Assembly (NCBI RefSeq): GCF_964355755.1
Contig: NC_092675.1
Location: 25,150,412 to 25,214,411 of the forward strand
DNA length: 64,000 bases
Source of the DNA: Antedon mediterranea
Lineage: Eukaryota; Echinodermata; Crinoidea; Comatulida; Antedonidae
Direction: 5' to 3'
Shown: in pieces, positions 1-52,483 of the stretch
Numbering within the stretch: the stretch's first letter is position 1
Layout: each line of letters starts with the position of its first letter
Made by a program: the position numbers and the translations under genes
Notes under the pieces: generated by a model
Database searches by the model: none
The model's input: only the letters and a program-made list of their open reading frames with translations
Told to the model about the DNA's origin: nothing

Positions 1-3000
1 TCCTCTCATAGTTTATCGCAATTTTTTTGACAGCCTCATATGAGACTAGGTTAAGCATGGGTTTCCCATCCTGTAATTAGTAAGTTGTGTACTTGATATT
101 TATTTGCTGGGAGATTAAAAAATAAAATAATACAAATATTATACATACTCTGGTAAATCTTTTGGGTTAGCTTCCTTCTGGTTCTGTAGGTGAAGTTCCA
201 TCTGCTCTTCAAATACTTTTATTGTTTCATTGAATGCATCAGATGCCTGCTGCTTTAATTGAATTTCCTATACAAAAAAAATACAGATTATCATGATTTG
301 GTATAGTATCCACTCACAAAATGTTTTTTAAAAAAATGCACTACACAGCTGTAGAGATATGGTTTAAATACTTTCAAAAGCAACTTTGAACAGCAAATAA
401 AATAAATAAAAACATTAATATTACTTTTGAAAATAACTTCTCTATAATTTACACTATGGTTTTTGTAAAGCAATCTGGATGCATTTCTAATTTTTAGAAG
501 GATGAGGTGCATTTTTTACTAACATATCAGTTATGGCTTACCTGCTGTGTCTTACTATATTCATCATACCATTGGTCGTACTGCTTTGTTTTCGCAAGAT
601 ATTCCAAGTTCTTTTCTAGTAATCTACTAATAACCAATTCAATACTCGTTTCTGCTTCATGGTCCTGTCAAAAATAGATTAACAAAATTAATTATTTATC
701 ATTCTACATCATTATCAATGAACCAATTCTGTGTTAAGAGTATTGGTGATTGTAGATGTTTTAAAGATGATTCACAATTTAAACTCTTCATTAAATAATG
801 AATTCTTTCAATATAAAATATAGATGGCATCAGCAATATTGTCTATACATAATTCAAAACACATGGTAGTACTTACACTTTCATACTTAGAAACAGACTG
901 TACAAGCTTTATATCTAAATTAGCGTTGTACTGTGCTAAGGAATGTGAACGATAATGATTGATTAAATCTGGTACTGAATGAAACTTAAGTGGTTCTGAG
1001 AAGCCATACATTCTGTTTTTATGAAAGATCTTGATCAGTTTATTGCTTCCACCCTTCCTGTAATAAATAAATATGATATTAAGGGGACACTTTGTTGTCC
1101 AGAACGTACCTCCTAAAGCTTGGTTCCCACTAGAACGTAACGCAAGGACGTAAACGCAACGCAAGCGTTTTAACCAATAACAAGCGAAGTTATAGACAGT
1201 TAGCAATTACAAGCGAATAAGCCATCGCTTGTGATTGGTCAATTCACTTGCGTTGCGTTGCGTCGCTAGTGGGAACCACGCTTTAATAGGGGTTCTACTG
1301 TATTAAAAAATACAAATTAAAATATGTATATCTTTTGTCTTTTCCCAATAAATTAGTCTTATTGAACACTAAAAGACTTTTAAAATACATTTTAGTAATA
1401 CAGAGCATCTTTTATCTCATGCAAATGAGGGTCATGCTCTCTAGGGGTACTGAATCTAACAAGCACTTTTTTGAACGAAATTGCTTTCACATCAAATGTG
1501 CTTTTATACTTTTTTTTTTTACCTTATCATTGGTTTGGGTTTTGTCAATCAGAAATAGAGAGAATTGCTATAACCAGCCAGATAACTAGAATAGGTTAGT
1601 ATACAATTATTATATATATATTTTGCTGTAATTTCTTACCTCAATGTGAGTGTATAGTCACCATGAGTTGCCTTGGTTGATGCATCTCGTACCAGAAATG
1701 TGCCATCTGGCATGTCCTTCAATTTCTCATTGGCATCCTCCCTATAAGATAAGATACATTTATTGTCCTTAACCAATTTTTATTTACTTCTAAATGTTGG
1801 CACATACAGTATAACAGTGAAAATATATATAAAAATACAAAAACTATATGAATAAATTATTGACGGTATATAAAAACTACATACAAATAAATTGTCATTA
1901 ATATATATCATAAATATCTTTATTCTTTATTTCAAGCCAACAGTGTAAAACACCAATAACAGGTTGAAAATAAAATAACTAAACTATAAAATATAAGCCA
2001 ATATAAATATATACAAAAATGTAAATAAGATTATTTAAATACTTTCATTAATAATACATTTAAATTGAGAGAAACTACAGTTAAAGATATCTAAATAATT
2101 ATTTTTTTTAAAGACATATAAAATATATATGTAAAGCTATGAAATATAAAAAATTAATGTCAAAATATAAATTCACTTCAGCGCTAGAAGACGCCGAGTG
2201 CGATGAGTACATTAGTCTCCTCATACAGGGATGTCACCAGCTTTTTGGAGTGCCGGTCGGCAAATTTCCCGGGGGAGGGGGTTAACCCCGGGGTATCTCT
2301 CCCCCCCCCCCCCGGGGTTTGTCGTTATTTCAGCGAAACATAAAGAATTAGGAAAATAAATAACAACAAATTGCGTCAGGTCTAGGCCTAACCTTGTACC
2401 ATCGGGGAGTCGCCGTTATTATTCGCGAAAACCAAAAAACGCTCACGAAATGAAAAGCAATAGATCGCGTCAGGCTTAGGCCTTGCCTTGTAGACACTAC
2501 GACCACTAAGGCCTAGCCAAGGCTTAGATAGATGCCCCAAAACCCAAAATCTGAATTCCACAAAAACGGGCGCTTCTTTATTTAGGCCTAATCCCTAATC
2601 AAATAATGTAGATAAATTATTAGCCTAGACCTTACTACTTGTTGCTCGATATATGTTCATGTTCTTTTGCGCGAGAGTTTTTTAGCGTATTCGCGAATTC
2701 CGGATTTTTTGTTTCACAACTGTGCGGCAAGCATGTAGAGTGCATGGCCGGCAAGAACAGAGACACGTGTTTATGGGTTAACTCAAAGATAGTGTCCTAC
2801 TACACTATCTTTGGTTAACTGAAGTTCAGCAACCTGAAGTTATCCCAGGGACGTGTAATTATTGTACCATGCTCGGCGATCATAAACGAACGAACTTGCC
2901 CGGTCTCACTGAACCATGCGCATGTTTTTTTATTTTTTTTAATAGTTCGTAGAGTACAAAAATGTAAAACTAGTAACATAATATAATTAAAGCAGGGTGA

Positions 3001-6000
3001 CAAAACATTCAGCAATTAAAAATGATTTTGTTTGGGTCTATGTAGTTATACATTTTTAATTACTGCGTACTTGTTTGTATTTTTAATCTGTGCAAAATAA
3101 AACGCTTGAATGGTCGCTATGTGAACTTTAAACTTGTACACTGTGCTGTGTAGCACGTTGTTCGCCATGACTCACAAGCTGTAACAATGAATACCAGGCC
3201 AGGGTAGGCCTGGTATTGTGTTACAAATAAAGTAACGTACGTAACCACGGGAAAATTTGCTGTAGTCTTTTGTCTTATCTATATGAGGCTAGCTTGTCTG
3301 TTATTAACGATGTGCTAGGTAAAATGTTTTAGTACGAATTTTAGTTAGGCCTAGGCCTAAGAAATATCGTAATGATTAATAAATAATAGTGGTGGTCGGC
3401 AGCCTGTAAATCCTGGTCGGAAATGTTGAGTGCTGGTCGGGGCCGACCAGCGCCGACCAGCGTGGTGACATCCCTGCTCATATAACCCAAATATATTGCA
3501 CAAAATATAAACATTTAAAAGAAAATGCATAAATGCATATGTAACAATAATGTGTAGAGAGTTCTCAAGCAATTTATCAGTTCATTTTTTAATTAATAAT
3601 TACATAAAAATTCTCTTCTTTTTTACCTTGATATGTCTCCCCAGTACCAATCACTGTCTTCCATCGAGATGCTGGCTTCTTTGCGAATTGGTTGCCGTGG
3701 CAGCGGTGGTGGTACATCTGATTAAAAATAATATTAAAGACATAATTTGGGTTTCAAATTGGCAAATAAAGATGCAACTAAAAAAATGACAATTTTTCTG
3801 AATAAATTTGAATTGGCTATGGTGGCCAATGCTTTATCACAATGCAAAGCTAGTTTTATCATTTTGCCAGCAGCTGTTGAAATAACATTGCAAATAACTA
3901 ACAAGCTTAGCTTCCATATTTGTAAATGTATAATTCAAATCAATTCAATTCAATTTCATTTTAATTCGGAAATATCATCCATATTAATAAACTAATAAAC
4001 AGAAAAATTGTAAACTTTAATATATAGAATGCTTCTCCATCTACAATACATTTCGGAGTTATGGAGCATATGTTTGCAAACACAAGCTACAAGGATGTTA
4101 CCACTATTCAACATACGTTGCATGAAACCATAGGTAGATTTTCGCATACTGATCATGTGTTAGTGAATTAGTGAACAGATTAGAAAGCAATACATACTTG
4201 ACATTGTATCCTTTGAACTAACACCCCAGTCTATCCTCTCTATCAACCACAATATGATCACTCGATGAATTTCAGAATTGTTAATAACTTCTCTGCAACA
4301 ATTAATAACAGTAATAAAATAATAAACAAAACGATGATGCGTTATTATGACACAAGTAACTGGAGATCAACATACAAATATTCAAAACACTAGTTATTTA
4401 AACACAAAAGTGTAAACTATTAAAATTTCAAATATAACAGCATTTGAGCGACTCTTAAATAATAGTAAGTTATCTAGAAGACTGAATGTACAGTACAATG
4501 TCAAAACTACATTTTGATTGGATAAGTATTCCTTATTGTAATCACCAATTGGTTTACAGATATTTAATACATTAATCATTATACAAAAGGAGTACTTATA
4601 TAACTTGTTAGTATTAAGTATCGTAGATTAGAAATAATAAGGACATACATGTATAAAGATACTGATGTAAGCAAATAATCCAGTTGTTGAGTGAGTTGTT
4701 AAAATGCTGCTTTATTGTTGGAAGTTCATTCAAAATAAAACTGCCTTGTGGATTGTGTGTGTATCTTATATTTCAACAAGGGATTTCAATAGTTATTTTC
4801 AACCATAGGAGTAGGAGAATAAAGAGGAAAACTTACAGAATACAATCCCTTGGTGGTCGAAGCAGAATGTGGCAGAAGACAGAAGCAAGTTTCTGTGGTC
4901 CAACTTTGTTGACCAGTGAGTGCTGACAGATGCGTGTGAAGTGCTTCATTAGGTACCTAAGTGTTGACCTGTGAGCCACTGTTAAGGACTCAACCAAATC
5001 ATTAAGTCTCTCCACTTTTTCCATTTCATTCCTTATTGCTGTAAATCAAGATAGGTAGATAGATAGGTGTCCATTTCTTTATTAAACAATATACACGTAA
5101 ATTCTTATTCTTTATTTTTATTTACCCTAAGCAAATATGGTTCAACCAAAAATCCATTTGCATTTGCTTTAATTAATTCTTTTTCAGGATGACAATATAT
5201 ATTTAAATGATCTGGGATATTATTCTGTTTACACACAATATACATTTGACTGCACTACTGCATCACAGGAGGCTTGACAATGTCATATTGGTATTTTTGG
5301 TAAAAGTATAAAGATTCATTAGTAGCTAGTAAACAGAGGGGTTGATATGCCTTACTGAACACGCCCAAACCCATTTAAATTAGCTCGCATATAACGGTAA
5401 ATCGTTAAACTAGCTGCGTTAGTAACTAGTTAAACGGAGTAAAAACATTTGGGCACGCTCCCCTACAGTACATTTGTTTACTTACAATTGGCTTCTATAA
5501 AATCAGAGTACAGATCATGTGATATGACAGGATTCGGTAATTCTCGTAGGTAACGCTTTAGTACACCAGCAATACAATGAATATCGTGAACGTTGTCTAG
5601 ATCCACTGTGTTTGGGTTTTTATTGAATTGTTTCTTAACCTGATTGACTGTGAGCGTTGCAGATGACGTCCTGTACAAACCCTCTGAATTCAAACCTATT
5701 TAAATGGAAACAAACTTGTTTAAAGATCATAGAGTGAAAAATACACAAATACACTACAAACCATGTTACTTTCACTACTAAACTAAACAATGTTGAAGAT
5801 GGCATGAATTGGAAAAAAACTGAATGGAACACAATATCATTTTACAGTTTTATAAAGACAGAAGTTATTTTAAAGACCCTTTTAAATGCTTACATTCATT
5901 CTTTAAAAATGCATTCTGAAGAACCAAACTTCCCAGAAAATTTGAAAAGTGTTTATAGTGAGAGTTGATAGAAAACATTTATATAAATTGTGTAGTGCGC

Positions 6001-9000
6001 AATAACAATAACACACAATTAGTTTATATGTTCTTTTCAATTATTTACACAGTACAATTTCTTAAATAGTTAAACAAAGAATTTCTGACTTCATTTATTT
6101 TCAAAATACCTGAAAATATCTTTAGGAAGAATTACCAATTAATACTTGTACAAATAATGTATTACTATTCTTTATCTTATTTCATACGCATAAAAACAGC
6201 GAGCAACTCGCTAATTACAGGATGGATAAACTATTTAAAGCTTAGGGAGTGAAGTTGAAAGAGTCATTAAACAACGACAACATGTTTACCTCTTTCTTCA
6301 ATTGCTTCAACACATTTGACTACTACAAGAGGTGCTGGGTCACTTGCAGGGTCAAACTGCTCAGATAAATCTCTTGAAAAGACATTTCCTGTACACAAAA
6401 AATTTAATAAATCATTTACTAAAGAAATTTTCAAATTATGGAATACGTAATGGATGTAAAGAATGTCCAGCATTGGTACTGTACTGTAGTTTGTGCTTAA
6501 CATGTTGGTTTAATAGTGCGGGTCTTTGAAATTCAAAATGTCATGCTGTATGTGTGAAACAAGCACTGTGAATTTTATTGGGAACATGTCTACTTTGTAT
6601 GTATTTCCAGGGCACTGTGTTCAAATGATTGCAGTATGACAATACATGGATTATTCCATAACTAAATCTTGTGAAATGTATCTGATAATACCTAACACAT
6701 CCATTAAATGCACTCCACTATAAACCAAAGTGTAAAATACATACGTTTACAAAAACTATTACTTCTGATCGAGGATGAAATATTACAGACGGGCAAACCA
6801 GTCATTGCACAGCTTCTGTGACATATAAGACCACACTCTAAACAAGACAAGAATCATTCTAAAATTATATACAGTACTATATATTATTTAATATATTATA
6901 AAAATAATACGGTGACCCTAAACAGCGTATGCTGACAATCTTGATGAGTAACAGTGGCTGTCTGTAATCCCCTACTACGCTCGCGCTAAGGTCAAATTTT
7001 CGTTCGCCAAAATGGCGAAAGGTTTTGAAAAACATTAGCCAAATTGAAAATCCTTTAGCCAAATTTAAAAAACCTTAAAAAATTCGCAAAAATGTTTATT
7101 AAATAAATAATGTATGTATTTGTTTGTTATTTTACTTCTTTTACATTTATATTATTATTATTTATCCCAATGAAGCTGGTTTTCGTTACCGCGATTTTAA
7201 CACGTTCGTGAAATTTCAAAAAGTGACGTGTCTTTGAAGTTAAAAATATACTATTTCTTATGTACCCATGAGAATAAAAATTATATGCCTGGAAAGATCT
7301 TGTTTAAGGGATTATTTTTATATATTTTTAATCTATGTTTATTAAATATTTTAATAGAAAACACGAGTTAAAAATGAGGTACAAAAGCCGGCGAGCCGAA
7401 ATCTGCGCGCTAAAAATAACTTCGGAAAACACCTACCCATTTTCGCACCCGATCGCACGAGGTCCATAATAGGTGGTGGAGTAATTTTTGTTGCATGTTA
7501 TCAGGCTTTAAATACTCTTTATTTTGATATGTAAATCGGTTATTATTATTATGTACATCCGCCTCATATGTCAATTTTAACGATAACAATTTTTTAGCCT
7601 TTCTCATTATCAAAATCTGGCTAATTTAGTAATGAATTAAAGCTAATTTATATTTCTGTTTGATAAACCACATCGTTTTATTTGACTTTGCGTGGACCTG
7701 GTGCGAAGAAGCCAACAAGACCAACCACTGAAAAAAATAATCCCTACCATAAATATCAGTGTTTACCATTTTCCTTACGGGGGATTCAGTTCTCCGCTTA
7801 TTACTAAATTACCGTCGCCTAGGTATTAGCGCGTTAATTAATGATTGGATAACCCCCGCACAGTGGACTGTTCCATTTTCTGAACTAGTATTCACCGCAC
7901 ACGAGGCATGTCGAAAAATGTCGCCTCTCATCATGGAATACTTGCTTCGAAACGTCAATTTTACCTATTTATTAAATTATTTAATAAGTGGAATATTTAT
8001 CAATCTATTATATAAAACAAGTACGTTAGGAAGAAATGTACCACAGAAATTTAAGAAGCTTTGAATTTGCTATGCAGCGGCCGTAACCCATTCTATGAAG
8101 GCGGCCGAAACGCACTTTGGCCAGGGTTGCCGTTGTAGTATACGTTGTTTCTTAGCTATTCAATTTAAAGCGCAACTTTCGGTTAGAATAATCGAAAGGG
8201 AAATAAAATTAAACATGTTAACATTATACTATTGAGGTAATTACTTTGTTAAATTTAAAATTCCCCTTTTTAAATAACAGAACAGCCTCGTTTACGGAAG
8301 TCTTCGTCCACATGTTTCTGTTTACATTTTCTTCTCGAAGTTCATTTTCTACGTCGAAGAATAGGGACTTCCCCTTTTATTCGCTCATCATCACGTCGAC
8401 GACGACCGGCCACGAACCAATCACATTAACTGTGTGTCATTAAAACGTCATCGAGGCACGCTCTGCGCATGTTTAAACAGAACTAAAAAAATGAACACGG
8501 CGATCGTGACGTCGTCACATAAAATGCTGTTGTGGTAAAAAGTGTACCCGAGTCAGAAAGTACCGAAGTGTGGCGAATTCTCGCTCCCATAAGAAGTCAC
8601 GCCGACCAGGCTAGGCCTAGGCTTGGAAATGTATTTTCGCCAATTTGGCGAACGAGGCAATAATTATTTTCGCCAAATGGAGACTCCAGTCGCCATTGGC
8701 GAATTGGCGAGCGGTTAGCGCGAGCCTAGCCCTACTCGTCTCGAAAGATGTACTAGGTTCTTTAAAGTGCACATGAGCCAGATGTGTACACTGGACCTAC
8801 GGTTTATAGTCCTTATCCAAGAAGACTTGTTTTACCACCTGAACCATGGAGCGAGTAAGGCTCGAACCCTTGCCGATGTTAATATGGCAAGGTATTACAG
8901 TTCCACGGTCTTAACCGCTTGGCCACTCACCGCTATAAACCGCTTATAAACGTTATAAGATAATAGTTGAGTCTGAACATCCGGTTTTAATGCCACAGAT

Positions 9001-12000
9001 TATTGGGGTTATATAAGTAATCTTTAATGTGGGTTTTAACATAGCCTACCTGAACATTGTAGGCCCTGTCGAATTAGACCAAACATGAACTTATGACATT
9101 TATCACACCATTCCATAGTAGAGAAGGTATGCTCCCTTAATGTATGCTCTACTGCTGTATGATGTACTGAAATAATAATTAACAATAAAGTATTTAGAAC
9201 ATTCAAAGTTGTGCTGGACGCTACAGAACTAAAAAGAGAGTTTGCATCTTATTAGAAAATCTTTTGATATCGAGTAAGATGTATTTTTGGTTTACATTGC
9301 ACTGACTTGATATGCATTAGGTTTGGTTGATCAGTCCACAGTTATGGAGGCCAACCTTGCATATTGGGTGGTAATATTCATGGATGTTATTTCCGCCTCA
9401 GTATCTTCTTCTTATTTTCAATCATATACGGAAATTATATATTATACCATAAAGTTCATGATTTTTTGTTATTCATATTGTATGTTTCCTGTTTATCTCA
9501 TCTCTCATTATCTTATCGGTAGCACTGTCTGGAAATGTTATACTATGAATAAATATGATTACATGAAGTTTTCTTGATTAATTTCAGATTAATTATAATT
9601 AAACATCTTTCCTCGTAGGTGTATTATAATCAATATCTAAAACCATTCAAGCAGATAAAGGTCATTAACACCATGTTGCAATATGAATAAATTATGCTCC
9701 ACACATTTTTTAGTAAAGTCATGAAAATTAACTTTTTCCAATTAAAGCTTATCAAAACCTATTAGGTACCTGAAATAACACTGAATCTGTAAAGAACACT
9801 CAAATATTGTGAAAACCATACTTACCATCTACAGACGCTGAGTGTGATGTCACTTGTTTTTTTAATGAGGTACCCTTTGCTAATTCATCTCTTGTTATCA
9901 ACAGACAATTGCGGTGAAACTCATCACCTATTCCCATTTTCTAGAAAAAAAACCCATTAAAACATTAGAGGTAATCGACTGGGCACTTTACTCCCACTGC
10001 TCGCATATAAACAGAGATGTTTTAGGAAAGACTACATCTGCTGACTATCTGCTTAAAACAGCCCAGTTAAATACTCCTATTTGATTAATAATTAGTTAAT
10101 TATATTTATTCTCAGATGAAATGAAAGAGGAGCTAATATTTATGACCAAAATATAGGAAAATATTAAACAGAGAAGCCAAAAGATAACAACAATTTTGGT
10201 AGAGCCATTCTTATAAGAAGGTAAATAGGCCTAGTAGAAGGAAGTAAAATAAATGGCAAGGTACTGTTGGTACAAATTGAAAAAAAAGCATAAACACAAT
10301 CAAGTATCATTGTCATCCTGGTTTGCAGTTCGAGTCCGAGAACACGTTTAAAGGTTATATTATGGACGGGTAAATGCTAAACTGCACAAACATTGAGATA
10401 AAAACCCATGTCGTGAAAAAAAAGGATATAATGTGAAGAAATATACAGTGAAGGAAATATACAGAAAAGGAAGATGATGAAGTTAAAAGGGCCATGTTGT
10501 GTCTAAAAATGTTAATAGTATGTACCACTTACTTCCTTATGGATTTACATACAAATGTATGATTGTGTAATTTAATGGATGCTATATTTATGATAATTGA
10601 GATTATTTTAAAACTGTGAAAAAGTCAATTATTTTCACAATCTAAAAACTTAATTTCATTTTATTTTGTGATGAGATAAGATTGTGGATCTATCTGAAAG
10701 AATTTGATATCTTCACATTCTGTTCACATTGAGTCTGTCAGAATTTGGTGTAGACCGGAGAAAACAGAGCTGCTTTCGCACACATACATTTTGACATCTA
10801 AATCAAATTAGTAGTTTTTATATTTAGCATTTTTCGGTACCCTGATACTAAAAATCTGCATTACAGTTTTTGCCCTGTTTCCGGTTCCCGTGTTTTCCTG
10901 TTTTATTTTTTAGTTTTTATGGGCTGCCTTATACTGTACTGTACAAGCTTTTTGATTTTTTGGAATGTTTTCCCTCCCTATTATTTTAATCATATTCACT
11001 GTTTTTATTTCTTATGAAGTAAAGAAAAGAAATAAATGTTACTTTGATTGATTGATTGAATGTGAATGTTTAGATATTCTTAAACACTATGCCAATGTTC
11101 CCTAATTTTTTATTCTTCCATCAGACAGGAAATCGTCCTCAATGTGAATGTACCTTTACAAATATTTACTAAACCAACAATGCAATTAAAATGATATTGA
11201 TACATAATGATAAACATAGACAGAAAACAAAACATAAAACAATATTACATTATTTATTAGATGATTCACATTTTATGTCACATTTAACAGGATAACAAAC
11301 AATGAACTGTTTCTTCAAAGAAATTCAATTGCAGAAATTAATTTGAAGTAAATGGATAATTGTAAAAGGAACCTCCGACGCAGACTTGTGTCTCTTACGT
11401 TAAATAGGCTATTTAAAAACAACCTACAAAATTCATTACGTTTTAAAGAAGACAATATAGGACTTTTTATTGTACATTTTTTATTCATACTGTATTGGCT
11501 TATACTGTAAATTAAAAATAACTGAAAATTACCCAGAAAAATTAATAAAATGAAACTTCAAATAATATCCAAATAATTTCAAATTAATGCACAAAAAAAA
11601 CCAGTTTGAAACTGAAAAATATCAAAGCAAAAAGGATAGATTTTCGTTTTTTAAAAGATTACAACCACTATGATATACTGTATCTTACTTGTAAAGCCGT
11701 TTCATCTAGGTTGTTCAGTGCATTACCATCAATCTTCTTAGTTTTAAATAAGTCAGCATATCTATAGAGGTTTGTGGCAGCCATCCAATTTAAAATATCC
11801 TCCACTGACCATTCTGCTAAATCCTGTGTAATTAAAAGGTTGATTGATTGATTGATTGATTAGCTTTACATGTTAAAAATTAATTATTAAGATGATAGAT
11901 TATTATTCAAGATGAGAGATTGGGAAACAAAAGTTCATAAATCGATGATGCATGGCCTACTGACGTTTGACAATGACATGTACAGTACAACATACATTTT

Positions 12001-15000
12001 ATATTTTTGATAGGCCTACAGTACATTACTCAAAAGATTCTTTCTTTTTTGTATTGAATGCGTGCAATAAATGTTATAATTTAACTAAATATTGCTAAGA
12101 AAAAATATGCAATATAATTAATAGTTAATTTTTTAATTGGCAAACAATATTACTGTACATTAATATTCCATTGTATGTAAATTAAGGGCAAAAAATCCAA
12201 ATATTAATAACTTGAAAATAATTAAAAAACAAGTCTAGTCATTAAAATCATTTGAGGTATGAAGACTGAGACCTTGTATGAAATGCACACTCTAGTTTTA
12301 GAACAGATTTTTTATCTGGAAAAATAATTATTTGCAAAGTCGATATCACATTATTAATACTGTTAAATGTATCTATAATTATTTTTAGACTACACACTCC
12401 GCTTTAAAACAATAGCGATAAAAAAAAAAGATTAAAATTTTAATTAATTTTAGAAAGGTTCCATAAAACATTGACCACAGCATGCCATACACTCACCCGT
12501 GACCACAAAAATGACAGATATGATCTGTTAAATGTCAACTTGTGTTTATTTGTATATCATTATTAAATTTATTAATTCTATCATCTAAAAACATAATGAT
12601 TTCATTATAAATTTCAGACAAACGGCTTACGGTTGACTATTTTTTCTTCTTTCTTTTTATGGTTTTTAACAGGTAAATAATTTTTTCTCGACCTAATTTT
12701 TCCTCAAAGTCAATCAATTAAGACATTAAAATAATCAATTTAAACAAAAATTGTTTAGCATAAATTATTATTTTTATATTATTTATTTATTTTTTTTTGA
12801 GAGGGGAAAACAATATATTTTTTATACAAACTTACAGTAGGCTGTGAAACATCTTCATACATCCTCTTCTGATCACACGGGCATTTGTTACAATACGGTA
12901 GGCAGATTAAGTGAAATACGTGCTGGCAACGGTCACACCTTTTTCCAACCTGACCACATCCCCAAATATAATCATTACCTGGAAGGAAACAATATAAGTG
13001 TAATAAACGGCCTCCTGATACCTGTATCATAAACAACCACTTTCTACTGTATAAATAGCCATTCTTTGAATTTCAATCAAACATGGCATTTGTAAGATTA
13101 GTATTATCTACTTAGACTAGTTAGTGTTACTGAATACTGTATGTATGCATTTATACACCGAGTTCAGAAGCTAATGTTACTTATTCCACTATGCTATGTG
13201 TTTGATCATCTTTGTTTGAGCCAGATTGATTTTTCACTATGCAGAATGGTTTTTATTTACTTTTCTATAAATAAACCACTGCTTTTACAGTATTTTCCAC
13301 AAAAATACAAGAAAAATATGAACATTAGATTACTGACCATTTCCTTTTCACAGGCTACCAAAATACTAATATTAAATTAATTATTAAATGAATTCGCCCA
13401 CACCTTTATTAAATATTTAAAATGGCAATATTCCTATTAAGCCTCATTAATTATGAATGTATATAGATAAAACAGGAAAGAGCAGTTTAAACTCATTAAT
13501 TATTCATTCATTATGGAAAGGTTACAACATAATGTATGAAAAACAAGACATGACTTGGCTAAGTATAATAAATCAAAAATTATTACAGACATCACTGATA
13601 GTTTCAATTTTTACACATAGCAAAGTCACCATAAGAAGTTTTAAAAATAGTACTTTGTGTTTTTCTTTTGGTACCCATCCTAAGCCCCTCTAATTAGTCG
13701 TACACATTATTTTGATTGAATCTTGTAGCGGTTTGTTTGACCACAGAGTACTGTACATTCCATTCTGGGTGAAAATGTTAATATTTGTTATTACCGTCCA
13801 CCCGCTGATTTAAATGATTTTTTGGGAGCACAAAATTAGAAGAAATGCAGTAAAGATAAAAATATAATTTTTTTTAATCTATTTTAAAATAATTATTTAC
13901 GCACAGAAACAGGCACAACTAAAACTTAGAATAAATTATGTTAGTATGTTTATTATGGTAATACTTGCATGTCACTATTTGGTTTCCATTGAGTAATAAA
14001 ATAAGCTTTAATATCTTTGTACTGATGTACAACGTACTCTGTACTCTTGGTAAACACATCAATACAAAACAGTTTTTACTTCCTTGTCAAACTAGACAGT
14101 GCTTTTAATGTTATCAATGATTTGTTTGAAACTTAAAATTTGAATTTGAGGAATCGCATGTTTTGTTCCTCATGTACTGTACATGTATTGGGTTCGATAT
14201 TAAAACCAGTTTTATTTTTAGATTTATCAGTAAATTTTCATTTCTTAAGGTAAATCCAAGGGTAAACTACCTGTACAGTACTGTACAACACAAAAGATGG
14301 ATAGAATATTAAGTTCAGTATTTAATTTCTCCTAACTTTTTCTAAAACTTGGATCCACCAACAGTAAGGTGAATGAAGGCCTTTTACATTCCTGTTTAAC
14401 GATTATAGTGAAAATGTTTTACCCGATTACAAACTAGTATATTAGATCTGAACAAGCAAACATCAACCACCACACAAGATACAGTACTTTAATTAATACC
14501 GGGGGTCATTTTTAATAATATTTATTATTAACTGGACTAACCAGTTTTTTTAACTAGCCCAAATTCAATTTTACTGGTCATCAAAAAGTGAAAAATTGAC
14601 AGGCCAAACTGGACCAGGTACGATATTGCAGGCCCATTATTCAGGTTTTACCTAGACCTACAAATATTGAATGACTGTTTTCTCCCAGTCTTAACAACAC
14701 TCTTAGAAATGTTAACATTTCTTCACACTATCAGTTTCAAAAGACAGTACGTTTTATACAATAGTAAGATTAAGAAACATGCCAAGTACAAGTAATTTCA
14801 GTTTTATTCGGTTTATTAAACAATAATTTAATCACTTCAACATCTGGTAACATCGGTTATCAGTAGCTCTTTGCTAATTTTCAAATGTCATTGGGGAGGG
14901 ATTTTGTCCATGATTTCCCCTAATCAAATGAAATAATGACGTCAGTCCAATTCACAACGATAACCTGTAGTGCTGCCTCATTATACTACTGTTACAGCTA

Positions 15001-18000
15001 GATGAGAAATTCAAATTAAATGACTGTATTACACTGCAGTAGGTCAGTAAATGCATTCAAATCCCTGCAAGTACTGTATCTGCATTTTACACACTTAGCA
15101 TTGAAGATAGGTCAAAATTCTTAATCCTACTTTTTGGTTTACAGATTGCAACATCCAACTAGATTTATTTTTAGACTTTGGTTTATTAAAAAAACAATGT
15201 ATTATTAAGCCAGCATCTTGATAGAACATACATAACAGTAGTCATCTGAAGAAAGATAATGGCAACTAGTCTACATTTTTTTAATTTAAACAATCTGTCA
15301 GCACCTGCTTCATAATTATTGCAGAACATTATCAGATGTGTGTAGATACTTTATCAATCAATGTGATAATCCCTTTTTGGCAATTACTGTGTGTGCCAAT
15401 TACAGTACAGAAAGAAAATACTGCAACTTTACCTACGAAGTAGCTTCGTAGATAGAACGTAGGCTACGTTGTTGGCTTCGTAGGTTCCATTGTTTGGCTT
15501 CGTAACCTCAATAAACAACTTTCAATGAGCTACGTTCTGAACTTCGTAGGGAGTTCGTAACCAAAATAAACAACCCTACGATGTTCTTAGTGAAGTAAGG
15601 TGTGAAATTAATGTGTTAAATTTAATTGGCGGAGGACAAAGTTGTAAATTAATAAAAAATAAATAATATTTTTTAATAATCGTAATATTTTCCTTCGTGC
15701 GTGTTTACCTACTCAACGGCAAATATAAATTTCCCACGATGTATAACGTAGAGAGAGACACGATCCAACACAGGTGAACCGCAACGAACAGGCCAACTAA
15801 TAAACATAATATAGCGAACGTCCCATCCAGAAACGATGCCGAGAAAAAAAGATCGTAAACAATTCATTCTAAATATAGCATCAGGACGTTCAATCGGTCG
15901 TTCAAAAAGACTGCCGACAGAACGACCGTAATTAATACAGACCTAGTTTTTTTTGGGTCACTTGGCATGAAACGCGATACTCTCTGCTTACCGCAATCTC
16001 TCACATGTTTTTTTTTTTAGGGTGGCTACCGTCTGACGACGATAAAACAGTAATTAAGATCGTGTACCTGGATTTTGTGTCACATGACATGAAACATAAT
16101 ACTCTCTTTAAACTGCTCAGCTCACATGTTTTTTCCCCTCCAAATTCTGGTCGGGCCTTTTTCTTTATACATGTCGTAATCATTTTAAAAGGCCTATTTA
16201 TTTATGTTAAATCTTAATATGGAATATATATTTATTTTGCATATATTTTGTTGGTGTCCTAGCCTAGTTGTCGTTGTTTTTATAATTCGCTAACCCAACA
16301 AGGTAGGAATAAATAATTTATAGTGTAGGCCGCCAAAACAGGCTAGCTAGGCCTAGCCTAGCCTCGACTCTCTCTACGTGAGCTGATGTCCACCGGCCCG
16401 ATGTCGTTTCGTCGGCGGATTTCCGTCCAAATTAGGATAACAAACAATACATCGTAGGCTACAAACAATACATCGTAGGAGAGAACAATTACCTACGATG
16501 TAGGGCGGCTACAAAAATTGACCTACTATCTTTAGGTAGGATTTTAATTAGCAAACAATACATTGTTTGTTTGCATTGTCCATGCTTCTACGAACCACCC
16601 TACGATCGAGGCGTAGCCCAGATTTCATAACAATACATCGTAGGCTACGAACAATACATCGTAGGTAGGAGAGAACAATACATCGTAGGCTACGAACAAT
16701 ACATCGTAGGAGAGAACAATACATCGTAGGCTACAAACAATACATCGTAGGCTACAAACAATACATCGTAGGAGAGAACAATGACCTACGTTCTACCTAC
16801 GAAAGCCTACGCGTAGATACGAAGCAGTAATTTCTTTCTGTACTGTAGAAAAAAAAAATCAGTGGCTACAAATATTCACAAACCCTGAAGAGAGATATTT
16901 ACTGTACCTATGATAAACATTTTACTTAATTCAATAAATATTTAAGAATTTCCATTTACTGTATGTAACTAACTGTATACAATGGCAAGAATTATTTAAT
17001 TGTACAGTAAGGGTGTTTCCCTATAGCCTGTGTGAATTGTGAATATGGCCAGAGTTTCATGCATACTGTACTGTAAAAAATTGTATTTTAATATTAATAA
17101 TTAACACATTTCATATTCATTTCTCTTGTTCAAAATTCAAAAGCAAACATAAAGTACTTACAATAGGAACAAAGTTTTGGAGATATGAAATATGTATCCG
17201 TTAAGTCGTGTATACACTCTGGCTCTAAAACAAATAAAAACAGAAGACAGTAAATTGTCTAAATCTGATCATGAAATCAATCAAATACAGTGCATTTTGT
17301 AAAGTTTTATTTATTAATTTAAAAAAAACATTTCAAAAGTGGTTAATATGGGAAAAAGAAATGTGAAAAAAAAACAACTATGCACAAAAACAGACAAATA
17401 CAGTACAAAACTGATAATGAAAGGTAATATTTTTTACAATTTTGACAAAATATTTACATAAAATATTGAATATACTGTAAGTAATCCAATATTTGTATTT
17501 ACCCGTATTCTTATTGAGGGTTTTTAAATCAGTTCCTTTAACTGGATACTTTTCTTCAATTCAAATTCAATCAAGATTGTATAAAATAAATATTTTAAAA
17601 AAACACAGAGCCTGAATTGCAGATTAACTGTACTTACCACTGTCATTGCCACCTACAGACACATACCCTGAGGTGTCAGGACTCGGTGACCTCGCAGGCC
17701 TGACATCAAATTCTGTCCTGTCAGATCCATTGTTATGATTAACAATATTAATAGCAGGAGAATCTGGCTTATCAAGGGAAGAAGGTTTACTCGGGGGTCG
17801 ACGTACTGGTATTACAATCGTTTCAACATATTTTACAAAAGGACCAGGAAAGCTCCCTCTTTCTTTAGAACGTTCGTTAATACCAGTTAACCATCCTACA
17901 GGCTTTTCAACAGTTCCTTGGAAGTATTCAAGTTTTTCCGGATCTTTTACACTTAAAATATCTCCGGCACAGAGTTGTAGATCCTCCTCTGCATCTTTTG

Positions 18001-18040
18001 GAAAGTCATATAATGCTTCATATTTTACTATTTCTCCCAT
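1..18040 (-). CDS. PIK3R1: Class IA PI3-kinase regulatory subunit, p85-like, with added C1 and SAM domains (3' end cut by window edge)
   Basis: Adaptor that binds phosphotyrosine proteins and holds the p110 lipid kinase. Coding exons in transcript order (plus-strand coordinates): 17638-18040, 17162-17224, 12836-12978, 11689-11823, 9826-9940, 6290-6388, 5486-5695, 4837-5038, 4198-4292, 3627-3717, 1640-1741, 877-1057, 542-664, 145-267, 1-70; all phases agree. Domains: SH3 at residues 1-85 ([13 protein letters not shown]), Pro-rich linker, C1 zinc finger about 140-188 with H-X12-C-X2-C-X13-C-X2-C-X4-H-X2-C spacing, SAM about 204-272, RhoGAP about 300-480 with Arg finger R328 in GLYR, nSH2 with FLVRDAS (R537), then the iSH2 coiled coil, where the window ends near residue 718. 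The rest of iSH2 and cSH2 must lie to the left. Vertebrate p85 has no C1 or SAM. The start is the ATG before the SH3; the frame is open upstream, so a longer N-terminus cannot be excluded. It could equally be called PIK3R2/3; an invertebrate single-copy ancestor is likely. Confidence 0.93.
1078..1302. mobile_element. Nested MITEs in a p85 intron
   Basis: An inner element, 1116-1283, has inverted ends AAGCKTGGTTCCCACTAG and is flanked by TA on both sides. It is full of ACGCAAC/GTTGCGT words. It sits inside remains of another element recognisable by TTAAGGGGACAC at 1078 and AATAGGGGTTCTACTGTA at 1285-1302, which resemble the two halves of the AGGGG/CCCCT inverted-repeat family also seen near 28440-28600 and 62330-62400. 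Neither codes for protein. Confidence 0.6.
2226..3476. mobile_element. Non-autonomous hAT-like DNA transposon, 1251 bp
   Basis: Ends are inverted copies of CAGGGATGTCACCA, and the flanks carry CTCATA as a direct 6-bp duplication (2220-2225 and 3477-3482). CAGGG-type ends are usual for hAT elements. The subterminal regions repeat the GGTCGGC/GCCGACC word several times. No transposase frame is visible inside, so it would need a helper. A C-run of about 15 and a CCCGGGG palindrome lie near the left end. It sits within the p85 intron between exons 1640-1741 and 3627-3717. Confidence 0.72.
6970..8730. mobile_element. Candidate DNA element with GCTCGCGCTAA inverted ends
   Basis: GCTCGCGCTAA at about 6979-6989 is matched by its reverse complement at 8715-8725. 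Just inside both ends lie palindromes of the type TTCGCCAAAATGGCGAA / TTCGCCAATTTGGCGAA. The interior (about 1.7 kb) includes GGCGGCCGAAACG around 8100 and no convincing coding frame. The exact ends and target duplication are unclear because a SINE abuts the right end. Lies in the p85 intron between exons 6290-6388 and 9826-9940. Confidence 0.45.
8731..8930 (-). mobile_element. tRNA-derived SINE, copy A (3'-truncated)
   Basis: Read on the minus strand it begins GTGAGTGGCCAAGCGGTTAAG, an A-box-bearing tRNA-Ser/Leu-like head, followed by a B box (GGGTTCGAGCC) and a unique body. It shares the body word AAGATGTACTAGGTTCTTTA and the CACTGGACCTACGG block with the copies at 25919-26208 and 46594-46944. 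It lacks the 3' part present in the other two. Confidence 0.8.
10860..11075 (+). repeat. Probable LINE 3' tail ending in TTGA repeats
   Basis: A non-coding stretch ends in AAATGTTACTTTGATTGATT with a short (TTGA)n run at about 11047-11064, like the 3' UTR and tetranucleotide tail of CR1/L2-type LINEs. A similar T-rich tail ending in ACAAAATAAATGAAATGAAA lies at about 32490-32572. No reverse-transcriptase frame is attached. Based on tail shape only. Confidence 0.3.
12979..15402. other. p85 intron, left part: AT-rich, nothing recognised
   Basis: Between the second C1-encoding exon and the 1.4-kb element there is about 2.4 kb of AT-rich DNA with frequent short ACTGTAC/GTACAGT words. I see no exon, RNA gene or clear transposon ends here. 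The short open frames have no coding character. Confidence 0.6.
15403..16845. mobile_element. TA-flanked DNA element with ACAATACATCGTAGG arrays, 1443 bp
   Basis: The ends read CAGTACAGAAAGAAAATACT and, inverted, CAGTACAGAAAGAAATTACT: one mismatch over about 22 bp, flanked by TA on each side, as in Tc1/mariner-pogo-type insertions. The right third (about 16436-16800) is a tandem array of ACAATACATCGTAGG separated by CTACA/GAGA spacers. The left end carries CTACGAAG/CTTCGTAG inverted words. The core is A/T-rich with no transposase frame. It sits in the first large p85 intron. Confidence 0.75.
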
Positions 18041-19874: not shown

Positions 19875-20648
19875 TGTTATGCGCGATTTGAACGATTTGC
19901 GCAATTTGAAATTGCGCAAAAAAATCCTTGCGCAATTTGAAATTGCGCAAAGAATTCTTGCGCAATTTAAAATTGCGCAATGATTTTTTTGCGCAATTTC
20001 AAATTGCGCAAGAAAATCTTTGCGCAATTTTAAATTGCGCTGCACAATTTGTAAATTGCACAAGATAGTTCTTGCGCAATATGACACCTTTGCGCAATTT
20101 GAAAACGAACTGTAAATTTTCCCATACATGGCTAGGCTAGGCCTAGGCAGAGGAGTTTAAAATTTAGTATTTTATTATAAATAAATAAGACCATTTCAAT
20201 GAAGATAATGTTTAATACTCACTTTTTAAGTTTTTAATATTAGTTTAAGCTAGGCCATGTAACCTAGTCAGTATCAGTAGTCCAGACCCTAGCTAGGCTA
20301 GAGTAGTATAGCCGGCCGCCCGCGCCGCGCCCGCCTGGTGGAACACCACCGCTTCGTTTTCCTTCGTCGGTTCTTCGACGGTATGCTAACTTATAACAAT
20401 ATTTGCACTACTAAAATAAGGAAATGCGATATTTATCTTTAATTTTGAATCATTCTTAGAAATTACTATAAGAATATGAGTGTGCATGATTTCACAATCT
20501 GTCGAAAAACCTTGCGCAATTTGCAGATTACTTGCGCAATTTAATATGTTGCTTGCGCAATTTGAAACACATGTTTCAATTCAAATTGCGCAAGGACTTT
20601 TTTTTGCGCAATTTCAAATTGCGAAAATCGTTCAAATCGCGCATAACA
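19875..20648. mobile_element. Palindrome-array DNA element, Ginger-like ends, 774 bp
   Basis: Inverted ends TGTTATGCGCGATTTGAACG are perfect, with 4-bp flanking duplications GTAG (19871-19874 and 20649-20652). Within 230 bp of the left end lie about five near-perfect palindromes built of TTGCGCAATTT and AAATTGCGCAA, and three more copies of the half-site lie within 140 bp of the right end. No protein frame. TGTNR ends and 4-bp duplications are what I know of Ginger-type DNA transposons; assignment is by inference. Lies between the divergent p85 and fukutin genes. Confidence 0.75.
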
Positions 20649-20919: not shown

Positions 20920-23900
20920 ATGAGAAAATTAACATCGCTTGTCCTTACTCTCACTGTTGGTGCTCTCTTCCTTATTCTACAGATGCTTATTATTCATAAA
21001 TTCATTGAGAGGAGCAAATCTGAAGTAAATATGTACAACATTTTGAATTGAGATCTTCAATTAAATCTGTTCAATTAGACTTCTTTTATGAATGATTGAC
21101 AATATTAATACCTGAATACAACAGATTAATTAAATTAGCATTAATTGTAACACATCATTTATAATTAAATTATTGATTATTTGAAATCATTCAATATATA
21201 AAAAGAAAAAAGAAACTGTTTTAGTAATCCTGTCATGATTCTTTAACATTTTTGTTAGGTATTAGAAGATCAAAGAGAGGCTCTTCAGACACCAGTGCAA
21301 TATGTAAGTTAAATAATAATAGATTTTGATCCCACTTACGTTTAAGTGAGTGAATGCCTATGTTCCCTCCTTTCTAATTTAACATGGTAAGGTTTTATAA
21401 ACAATTTTATAGATATATACTTTGAAAAAATGCTGAAGGTTTTACAATGTTTAACATAGTTTATGTCTGCTGACAGAACCAACTAACAACCAACATTGAG
21501 TCTGATGACTAAAATTACCAAATAATTTATACTTATAGTGTGTAAAGCAATACTGTACAACTAGGATGTACTGAGGTTTTCTTGAATTTTATCTTTCCAC
21601 AGAAGGCTGTTCATATTTTTATGGCAGTAATGAGTAAATTAACTGTTCCAGTGGTTTTAGTAGAGCCATCAATATTGAAAGCAATTATGCAAAAGAGACT
21701 TGGACATCTTAAAGAACATAATGATTGTGAATTTGTATGTATAAAGCGCAACAAAACTACATTTTCTGTCCTTCAACACATGTTGGTGCATCAGCAGGTA
21801 TGGTGTGGTTAAATTACAAATTGAAGTTGAATGATTAGAAAAAGAATAGTTTCACGTTTATTACCATCATTTAGTAACCTCATTTGTATACAACAACAAA
21901 AAACAACTTAGCCAGAGTACAGAATGTCCTTTATTTTCAAAGGCCTAGAAGATTAATATTTTATAGAATTTTTAAGTATCCAGGTTTATACTTTCAATGG
22001 TCTGGATCAAGTCTACCACGTAGATTACTTTCAATGTTATAGACATACAACAGAAACAGCCAACTAAGGATGCAATATAAGCGAATTAATGCCAGCAAGA
22101 CTGGCTGCTGTGTAGTAAATGAATATAACAACATATTATAACCTATACAGTCAACTCTCCCAATACCGGACACCTTTGGGCCGGCCAAATAAGTCTGGTT
22201 TTCCGGGAAAGTCTGGTATTCGGAATGTGTTTTTAATGGTAAAATTAAATTTGGGACCTTTTGGTCCTCAAAAAAAGTCTGGTATTGGGAGACTTTCTGG
22301 TTTTCAGAGAGTAAGGTATTGGGAGAGTTGACTGTATAACATTTTATGAAGTACCTTGGTACAGTTTTATAAAATGATCTTGGTAAAAGTCTTTAGTGTT
22401 CCTGTCACACCAAAATCAGTCCGGGTCAAAATCGGTCCGGCGGACCAGTTTTGGCTGCCAAAATCGGTCCGGGGGACCATTTATGGCTGCCAAAACCTGT
22501 CCGGCCGGACCAATTTTGGCCGCCAAAACTGGTCCGGCCTGGATAAAATCGGTCCGGGCAGTAGGACTGTTTTTGGCCGCCAAATATGGTCCGGTCTTAC
22601 AAATATATGGTGCGCAAAATGAGTCATAATGTATATATCATTTAAAAAAAGGCCATGATTAGTCATTATTGAAAACTACGGGGATTTATTTGTTATTTTA
22701 ATATTATAAATTAAGCCTGTTTTTTTAATTATCATTATTAGTAGTAACTCATCAATAATTAATACTAATTGTTAAGCTTTTTGTATACAATATGTATCTC
22801 TGCCTGTTTTAATCCATTTTTTCTTTTTTAACATCTTCGTTTCCCCATGATGTTAAAAACAATTTAATTTATTAATTATTTATGGTTAATCAATCAATAT
22901 ATCAATTCAATACAATTATTATAAAACAATTATCCAATATTGATTAGGCTGAGGAAGGAAAAAGGCCTCAATCATAAATAAAATCTAGCTGGCAATATCA
23001 GCGTCTCATACCCGTTCATGTGAGTGTGTGGCAGGCCGAAATATGAGTGAACACCTAAGTCATGTTTTTAGATAAAATACATTTATTTATAGTATTTATC
23101 CGACAAGATAACTTACTAATATATATCATGGGATATTTTTCTAGCCATAAACAACTTAAAACAGCATCATAGGCCTAGTAATTCAATTAAAATCGACAGA
23201 AGAAAAGCCCGGACCAATTTTGGGAGTGGCGGACTGCTTTTGGCCACAACTTTAGAGCCAAAACTGGTCCGGCCGGACCGATTTTGGCCCCGGACCATAT
23301 TTATCGTGACATTCCCATGCAAATGCTAGCAATATGCTTACTAAATAGGATAAACGACAGATTAGATGAACATGTCCCTGTAACACAGGCCGCGTATCGC
23401 AGAGGACGAAGCACTACCGAACATGTACATACATGCAAAATGTTAGCAGAAAAGGCAATTGCGTCATCTAACTACGAAATAATATTACTACTACTTGACA
23501 TGACCAGTGCATTTGACACGGTGCGGAGGAATACTCTATTCGACATACTGACACATATATTACAAGATGATGAACTACACATGTTGAAAGTTTTGATAAA
23601 CAATGTAAAATTAAGCGTTCGAATTGGAAAACAGACAGGAAAATTGTTTACTACTACACTAGGAGTACCACAAGGTGACTGTATGTCTCCGATACTGTTC
23701 ACACTATACCTAGCAAAGGCACTCGAATCAGCAAACACAACACCACTACCCCTACAACAGCTTAATATCCAGATGCAGTATGCAGATGACATTTCATTTA
23801 TTAGCGACTCAAAAGAACACATAACTAAAATAAAGATAAATGTAACAGAGAAATTAGCAGAATTCAATCTAAAGATAAACGAAAGTAAAACAGAAGAATA

Positions 23901-26900
23901 CCTAATAGGAAGAAACACCGATAGTAAATGGGAAGAATGCAAATACCTCGGTAGTAACTTGGACACAGAAAAAGACATCAAAAGAAGAAAATCACTAGCA
24001 GCTATGGCATATAACAAGCTGAAGCCGTCGCTAGAACACAAAACGATGTCTATAGACGTGAAATCCCGTTTGTTTGACGCATACATAGCAAGTATTTTCT
24101 TATATAACAGTGAACTCTGGGTACTAAACAAAAAATTACAAGAGAGTATAGATATATATCACAGGAAAATGTTGCGAAAGATGATAGATATTAAATTAAC
24201 AGATAGAGTGTGTAACACGAAAATATACGAGATAACAAAACAAGAAGAATGGAGTAAAAGAATTAAACGAAGGAGACTAAAATCGTATGGACACATAATT
24301 AGATTACCGGATGATACCCCAATCAAACAAACAATGAAGGAAACTAACAGGAAAGTAAAACGACCCGTAGGAAGACCAAGAAATAACTGGATGAATCAAA
24401 TAAAGAAAGACTTACAAGGACTAGTAGACACTAACACAATAACAAACCATCCTGCCATAAACAGAAAAAAATGGAAACAAATTGTGGAAAGCGTAATGTC
24501 GGAAGACGGAAAACGTTAGCAACAAGCAACAATTTCCATGCAAAAGCATATAAGAATACGTTCTCGCATTGATAATACTCTCAACAAACTGCAACATTTT
24601 TATTTAATACAGATGAATCACCTTTTTTTTTCATCTTTTAGGAGGAATTATTAAGTTCTTTAAAACTTCATGGTTTTGCTGTTTTCAAAACTGAAGGAGG
24701 AGATCCTCTAACAGCGCACCAGTTAATGACATCAAAGCTTGTTCCATATCATTATCTGTTAGTCTATCAAGACCATCTCATTCACCTTGCTCTTTTGTAT
24801 GAAAGAAGTGACTTGTATTTATGGAAAGGTCCGCTTGAGTTACCAAGCAGTAGCAAGCTGTACCAAATTAATTTGGAGATTGGTACATTTGCAACTCCTT
24901 ATCCTGCAGCCATTAAAAAGTAAATCATTAATTTATTCTTTATTTTTCCATAATGAAAACTATATACAATTTATTATGCAGCAAATTTACTGGACAAATA
25001 GAATGGTTTTAATTTATTATTAATATATTAATTACATTAGTAATAATGAAAATATAATAACCTTCAATCAAGCACTCTGACTGACTATTATATTAACTCA
25101 TATTATTAGGTTTCTGGCTTATAGTGAAAAACTTTAGTATAACAATAAAGCCAACCATAGAGTATCATCATCATATCCGAATTCTGGATCTGAAACTTGA
25201 ATTTCTTTGAAATAATACAAATGATAGGAGACTTTGTTTTATGTTATATAAAATCATTCAGTGGATCTTCTTGAATTTCTTGACCAATTGTTGTTTAATT
25301 CTAATTCAGTACTTGACAATTTATCATCAGGTTTGAAGTAGCAGAAGTCAAAATTGACGGCATCTCCTTAAAAGTTCCAAAACGGCCAAATAGATATTTA
25401 AGAAGTCTCCAAAATTCAAAGTTTCTTGAGTGTGACTACCAGCAAGCAATGGACTTCTACAGTGTTCATGGGAAAGATGACTCCTCAGTTGCTCTTGATT
25501 TTAAAAATAGAGCAATTGATGTAATATCACAAGGACAAAGAATTTTGGATGAGTTAGGGGTTTCATTCTGGCTTAGTAGTGGTACTTGTTTAGGTAAGTT
25601 TAAGGTAAATATGTAAAATACATTTTTTCAATAGTATAATAATTGATAATCTTTATTGTACTGTACTTTTGCTTAATACACTTGGCATAAACATCATTAA
25701 ATTACTTTTCTGTCTAAACCAATTATGCTGGGTAGTTATAAATGTTTATATTTTGCTGGCTTTCGGCCTCCTGAGTAACACAATGAAATCCTCCACATTT
25801 TTGCTGGTAGTATAAAATGAGTTACATTTAAAGTAGCAAGTTCAAACAAAGTACACCAATCATCAATTGTGCAACACTTTCTTATGTTTGTTTGTTTGTT
25901 TTGTTTGTTTTATCTTTATACTGGGTGACCTCTTCAGTCAAAGACTGATCTCCCAGAGGGCCCAGTTGGTGATCAGTGGCTGTAATGTACTAATACACCG
26001 GGGTAACCCCCTACTCGTCTCAAAAGATGTACTAGGTTCTTTAAAGTGCACACGACCAAGTTGTGTACACTGGACCTACGGCTTATAGTCCTTATCCGAG
26101 AAGACTCGTTCTACCACCAGAACCATGGAGTGAGTGAGCCTCGAACCCCTGCCGATGTTATGGCTACGTGATTACGGTTCCACTGTCTTAACCGCTCAGC
26201 CACTCACTCATATATGTATGTATGTATGTATGTAACAAACAAATATATAACTGAAGTATAATAGTTAGTTAGATAAATGTGTTTAAAGTAATAAGATAGA
26301 AATTGAACAAGTAAGACTATTATCGTATTATCGACCTGGATGACTTTCCATCATTTGTATGATTTATCTATTGTGACTATAAAACATATATCTTCAACTA
26401 CAGAATTATTACACATTTGATCTCGATCTTTAGGATGGTTTAGAGAGTGTAGTATTATCCCACATAGTAAAGACGTTGACTTTGGTATATGGGCAGTTGA
26501 TTACAAACCAAATATAATAAGTGCCTTTGAAATGAATGGCTGGATGTTGAAGCATATACTTGGAAAGGTAATTGTAATATAAACATATATAAAATATGAT
26601 TGTCAGAAAGGCTAATTATTTACATTAATTCAGTAACTATATTTACATGATGTATAGTACTGTATTATTAGGGAAAAAATGTTTTGCAGAACATTGCCAG
26701 AAAGTCTAATGAAGGGTGACTCGATCTCTTAATCATACTATCTGAATTCAAACATTAACATCCAAACACATGACTATAGCCAATCTCTTGGTTGATTGAC
26801 TTCTACACATAAAATCTGTTATTTCAGGTTGAAGACAGTTTTGAATTGTCCTTTATTCATAAAAATGGATTGAAACTTGATTTATTCTTCTTCTATGAAG

Positions 26901-44137: not shown

Positions 44138-52483
<8,346 letters not shown>

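Follow-up and report, generated by a model that had tools for sequence, protein, structure and literature searches.

The window analysed here is the whole stretch of 64,000 nucleotides from the crinoid Antedon mediterranea (NC_092675.1, positions 25,150,412 to 25,214,411). It carries a p85-type gene, which we read as the probable gene of a class IA phosphoinositide 3-kinase (PI3K) regulatory subunit. The gene lies on the minus strand and comprises 20 exons, with 16 in the window (18040 to 149) and four in the adjacent 10 kb. The spliced model is a single open frame of 964 residues, and all 19 introns are of the GT-AG type. Pfam and solved-structure matches gave the domain order SH3-C1a-SAM-C1b-RhoGAP-nSH2-iSH2-cSH2 (Table 1).

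A p85-type gene on the minus strand

On its coding content, the locus is best read as a p85/PIK3R orthologue, which encodes a class IA PI3K regulatory subunit whose long N-terminal arm, SH3-C1a-SAM-C1b-RhoGAP, precedes nSH2-iSH2-cSH2; we give this reading a probability of roughly 85%. The iSH2 coiled coil, which binds p110, is present (Pfam PF16454, E-value 1.5e-44, profile 3-160 of 161). Two SH2 domains flank it (Pfam SH2, 3.2e-36 in two stretches), and both keep the phosphotyrosine-binding arginine (FLVR, 598-601; FLIR, 879-882). Among solved structures, the SH2-iSH2-SH2 part matched human p85alpha at 1.1e-134. A p85-type SH3 and a RhoGAP domain (Pfam, 1.9e-44) were both found upstream of this part; for the N-terminal 96 residues, the best solved-structure match was the SH3 of human p85alpha (3.1e-14). 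Pfam also returned C1_1 in two stretches and SAM_1 at 6.4e-10. By analogy with human p85, the protein is likely to bind and regulate p110. From the gene model, we infer that all p85 exons are co-transcribed into one message.

Genome-wide profile searches covered 18 contigs (354 Mb). The iSH2 family profile gave two matches, both of which are exons of this p85 gene; hence, no second p85 locus was detected by this search, which proceeds exon by exon and which weak copies can escape.

Table 1. Exons of the p85-type gene (positions in the window unless a flank is given).
Feature	Position	Strand	Content and phase
Exon 1	17638..18040	-	Start codon, p85-type SH3 (p85alpha SH3, 3.1e-14), proline-containing tail; out phase 1
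Exon 2	17162..17224	-	C1a finger, first half; phase 1-1
Exon 3	12836..12978	-	C1a finger, second half; phase 1-0
Exon 4	11689..11823	-	SAM, first part; phase 0-0
Exon 5	9826..9940	-	SAM, last part; phase 0-1
Exon 6	9050..9166	-	C1b finger, first half; phase 1-1
Exon 7	6763..6837	-	C1b finger, second half; phase 1-1
Exon 8	6290..6388	-	RhoGAP start; in phase 1
Exon 9	5486..5695	-	RhoGAP with arginine finger GLYR, residues 389-392
Exon 10	4837..5038	-	RhoGAP
Exon 11	4198..4292	-	Region past the Pfam RhoGAP match
Exon 12	3627..3717	-	Proline-rich linker and nSH2 start
Exon 13	1640..1741	-	nSH2 with FLVR
Exon 14	877..1057	-	nSH2 remainder
Exon 15	542..664	-	iSH2 coiled coil
Exon 16	149..267	-	iSH2 coiled coil
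Exons 17-20	Left of window, flank C6:25140412-25150411	-	iSH2 remainder, cSH2, stop

Zinc fingers, SAM and RhoGAP of the arm

An earlier sequence-only reading of the window had placed a C1 and a SAM domain, encoded by four exons, between the SH3 and RhoGAP domains of one p85 gene. This placement holds in a single frame and with Pfam domains, and the four exons (exons 2 to 5) proved exact in their coordinates, with canonical splice sites and agreeing phases. Exons 2 and 3, when joined, form the zinc pattern that had been described, H-X12-C-X2-C-X13-C-X2-C-X4-H-X2-C. When the residues of this 70-residue stretch were shuffled 200,000 times, no shuffle gave the pattern (X13 or X14 allowed). Tested alone, the spliced C1a piece scored 29.4 bits (7e-7) against the Pfam C1 profile (PF00130; curated cut-off, 26.5), and its nearest solved structure was a PKC gamma C1 chain (2e73, 1e-9). 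The SAM domain proposed for exons 4 and 5 was also recovered when tested alone (SAM_1, 1.5e-11, 44.9 bits; curated cut-off, 23); its matches to solved SAM domains were weak, with the best at 1.1e-4. Polymerising SAM domains self-associate via mid-loop and end-helix surfaces.

The single C1 domain of the earlier reading is real, but two are present, and C1b, encoded by exons 6 and 7, had been overlooked. Likewise, the junction 9826/6388 that had been proposed keeps the frame but has alternatives, since exons 6 and 7 intervene and encode C1b. The spliced C1b piece alone scored 47.7 bits against Pfam C1 (1.3e-12; cut-off, 26.5). Its zinc pattern is complete, including the last X7-C, and it directly precedes RhoGAP. 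The donor of exon 7 is fixed at 6763 because the next GTAAAC donor leaves T before GA, which is a stop. The genome-wide C1 search gave 19 matches, none of them in the p85 gene, because the unspliced half-exons are too short for the profile; in the genome search, the first half of C1b was matched only with a chimaerin query (9.6e-4).

The residues relevant to diacylglycerol (DAG) binding were then compared, with positions counted from the first zinc histidine. We take Pro241, Gly253, Gln257, and Gly258 of the PKC delta C1B domain to be positions 11, 23, 27, and 28, respectively. C1a reads P, G, V, and G at these positions (3/4), and C1b reads M, G, Q, and G (3/4). All four residues were found in each of the three reference C1 domains (PKC beta second C1, PKC gamma 2e73, and beta2-chimaerin). 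In the relevant part of PMC9110374, these four are listed as the residues that, apart from the zinc ligands, DAG-sensitive C1 domains strictly conserve. The full set P11, G23, Q27, and G28 of a DAG-sensitive "typical" C1 is thus found in neither C1a nor C1b.

The catalytic site of RhoGAP domains contains an arginine finger, a lysine, and an asparagine. In the alignments, this p85 retains the arginine finger (GLYR) as well as the lysine; at the site where chimaerin and ARHGAP5 carry asparagine, it has lysine, and human p85alpha has valine. The set expected of an active RhoGAP (Arg, Lys, Asn) is therefore incomplete, with Asn changed to Lys. The GTPase-activating protein (GAP) activity of human p85 in vitro is described as very low or very weak in the relevant passages of a review (PMC7458397). 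Our best guess from these residues is that the RhoGAP of this p85 has a docking or weak-GAP role.

C1b and RhoGAP together matched beta2-chimaerin at 3.8e-50 over 250 residues, the best solved-structure match. The chimaerins (CHN1/CHN2) resemble the C1b-RhoGAP part in having a C1 followed by a RhoGAP. They differ in that their C1 keeps P11 (M in C1b) and their RhoGAP keeps the asparagine (Lys in this p85). The chimaerin C1 binds DAG, and we know of no chimaerin with an SH3, SAM, or iSH2 domain. A chimaerin-like gene lies elsewhere in the genome (C7:3.80 Mb), where two matches that cover query residues 3-93 had 77% and 70% identity. Three introns are common to this gene and p85 at aligned sites and phases: in C1, before SEGLYR, and after FI-x-A. 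In this genome, introns often fall within C1 and close to RhoGAP profile position 84, which weakens the shared introns as a sign of kinship. Match ends, which only approximate intron sites, fell at profile 32-34 in 9 of the 19 C1 matches and at profile 81-86 in 14 of the 53 RhoGAP matches, including those of p85 and the chimaerin-like gene. Near query residue 115, the chimaerin-like gene is interrupted by a further intron with no counterpart in p85. In a reciprocal search with the human p85alpha RhoGAP, the best matches outside p85 were ARHGAP15 and myosin IXb (55.5 bits each), and the chimaerins reached at most 54.3 bits, i.e., no preference was seen. A specific sister relationship of p85 and chimaerin was not established by the common intron sites, the extra chimaerin intron, and the reciprocal search. 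The term "chimaerin-like unit" for C1b-RhoGAP is, on this comparison, a description and not a statement of common origin.

Known p85 proteins and the possible role of the arm

Human p85alpha and p85beta (PIK3R1/PIK3R2) carry SH3, RhoGAP, nSH2, iSH2, and cSH2 in the same order as the crinoid protein. Unlike it, human p85alpha has no space for C1-SAM-C1, as its SH3 match ends at about residue 89 and its RhoGAP match begins at about residue 115. The cross-lineage distribution of p85 proteins with C1 or SAM was taken from PMC4617754 and PMC12817958. In the relevant parts of the former, C1 domains of class IA PI3K regulatory proteins are reported for Mollusca, Cnidaria, and Ichthyosporea, and SAM domains for Mollusca, Arthropoda, and Choanoflagellida (Philippon et al., 2015). 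Those proteins share with ours the RhoGAP and SH2 core and the presence of C1 or SAM N-terminal to it; they differ in that the passages concerned give one C1 and no C1-SAM-C1 order. SH3 is given there only for choanoflagellates and ray-finned-fish p85alpha, whereas the crinoid p85 has an SH3. The words Echinodermata, Hemichordata, Cephalochordata, and Strongylocentrotus have 0 occurrences in its main text. A further known case is Penaeus vannamei PI3Kp85alpha, for which the sections of PMC12817958 (2025) on the protein report two extra C1 domains and a SAM and speculate on membrane recruitment. It resembles the crinoid protein in these two C1 and one SAM, which have no counterpart in human p85, and differs in that its SAM is described as N-terminal.

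C1 and SAM domains in p85 have therefore already been described, which answers a question raised by the sequence-only reading; such extra domains are not news in themselves, and the novelty is modest. For the exact SH3-C1-SAM-C1-RhoGAP order, or for an echinoderm or hemichordate case, no paper was found in searches of an open-licence library, in which most papers were covered at the level of listings, and the relevant passages of PMC8797975 and PMC3238295 have nothing on a C1/SAM p85 architecture.

Several observations weigh against the reading of this locus as a p85 gene with a long arm whose fingers are not strong DAG switches. The SH3 scored 21.6 bits in Pfam (SH3_1), below the cut-off of 22.9. 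Chimaerins gave the RhoGAP higher scores (up to 119.5 bits) than human p85alpha did (94.6 bits), and ARHGAP5 (94.8 bits) scored about the same as p85alpha; therefore, p85 orthology rests on SH3 and SH2-iSH2-SH2. The tail of C1a is irregular, and the full zinc pattern failed there at the last ligand spacing. As the end of exon 1 and the start of exon 8 are both in phase 1, a transcript without exons 2-7 would stay in frame, and so would one without the C1b pair (exons 6 and 7), which has phase 1 on both sides. Both fingers keep the zinc pattern to H-X2-C with G23 and G28; in addition, C1b keeps Q27 and L24, and C1a keeps P11 and W22.

The skippable exons would suit a gene in which C1 and SAM are confined to an alternative isoform, with a vertebrate-like SH3-RhoGAP-SH2 p85, or a shorter one, as the main product. 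We consider this improbable. The C1 and SAM domains are intact with canonical splice sites, which suggests maintenance, and the shrimp orthologue with two C1 and a SAM was amplified for expression as a full-length open reading frame, according to PMC12817958. The retained C1 residues, together with the closeness of C1b and RhoGAP to the chimaerins, would suit an arm that serves as a DAG/phorbol-responsive switch, through which the output of phospholipase C would be coupled to the control of PI3K and of the Rho family. The DAG/phorbol link was also part of the sequence-only reading, and it is weakened here: strong DAG sensing by C1a or C1b is unlikely because each finger misses one of the four strictly conserved residues (V27 in C1a, M11 in C1b). 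Judged on these residues, the switch has a low probability, much like that of the isoform. It is hardly credible that the C1/SAM exons are a pseudogene relic or form a gene of their own inside the p85 introns, for which the 4.2-kb intron between exons 2 and 3 offers space, as the exons are collinear on the same strand with matching phases, no stop, and scores above the curated cut-offs, and the same kinds of domains are published in p85 of other lineages (PMC4617754 and PMC12817958, in the parts cited above). The reading frame and splice sites, the domain scores, and the orthologues in print led us to reject separate-gene, pseudogene, and chance readings.

For a p85 with a long arm, we infer throughout the following account of arm function, which we would give an even chance of being correct. 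The iSH2 domain would hold and restrain p110, and the two SH2 domains would take p110 to phosphotyrosine docking sites, both as in human p85. Within the arm, C1b and RhoGAP may form a chimaerin-like unit, in which the main part of RhoGAP would be to dock small GTPases or to act as a weak GAP. The C1a and C1b zinc fingers may provide extra membrane or protein contacts and would not be strong DAG switches, and SAM may serve as a protein-protein or self-association contact. C1a, SAM, and C1b would have been lost later in the vertebrate line.

The sequence-only reading had offered, as one alternative, a metazoan ancestor with this architecture and later loss in vertebrates, and this fits the distribution given in the cited parts of PMC4617754 and PMC12817958. 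An ancient C1/SAM architecture with later loss is plausible, and the idea is largely in print already. A bolder version, which we regard as speculative and rather doubtful, is that the early-animal p85 was a multi-input membrane scaffold, in which a chimaerin-like RhoGAP, next to PI3K and within one polypeptide, was gated by a SAM and two non-canonical C1 domains. The ambulacrarian-type gene would then keep the full SH3-C1-SAM-C1-RhoGAP order, the arm would have been lost only toward vertebrates, and the weak human RhoGAP would be what survives of a module once gated by lipids. Little explanation exists for the weak RhoGAP (BH) domain and the N-terminal arm of human p85, an important disease gene. 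A complete p85 gene with a longer arm, in a probable deuterostome, provides a reference for the losses in the vertebrate line and a construct to ask whether C1 and SAM once controlled PI3K recruitment.

Neighbouring genes and other loci

The same-strand downstream neighbour of p85 is a longin/synaptobrevin SNARE gene on the minus strand (positions 1382-3563 of the flank C6:25140412-25150411). The protein, joined by eye, matched Pfam Synaptobrevin (3.7e-25) and Longin (1.6e-10), and we take it to be VAMP7-like. In the same flank, a 78-base tandem array (7242-7957; Tandem Repeats Finder (TRF) scores, 792-1016) begins about 220 bases past the p85 stop codon and perhaps lies inside the p85 3' untranslated region. 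About 2 kb upstream of the first p85 coding exon, short palindromic units of the TTGCGCAATTTGAAATTGCGCAA type are repeated at window 19897-20059 and ~20520-20640.

Further into the window, a long open frame on the plus strand (23191-24519) encodes a retrotransposon reverse transcriptase (RVT_1, 1.6e-25, first 242 residues). Exons of a fukutin-like gene were found on the plus strand at 25317-27627; FKTN_N was matched at 9.8e-12 by one of three pieces, and the other two had no Pfam match. Another 78-base tandem repeat occupies 49309-49555. Its minus-strand consensus, derived by eye, reads as a glycine-rich CCHC zinc knuckle, presumably as in Vasa-type proteins.

Elsewhere in the genome, a Hox cluster with 12 homeodomain genes spans ~380 kb (C2:7827797-8206132), and 11 of the 12 genes lie on the plus strand. 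By the labels that we give them, the genes run in canonical order from a posterior end to Hox1, and the one reversed gene is posterior. This layout points to an ambulacrarian as the likely source; a COX1 search of the assembly gave 0 matches. In hemichordates, Hox and distalless are reported to lie on different chromosomes (PMC11175523), and no distalless gene was recognised among the homeobox exons read here. Nine further homeobox exons, which did not refine this placement, were also found, with a readable homeodomain in eight of nine.

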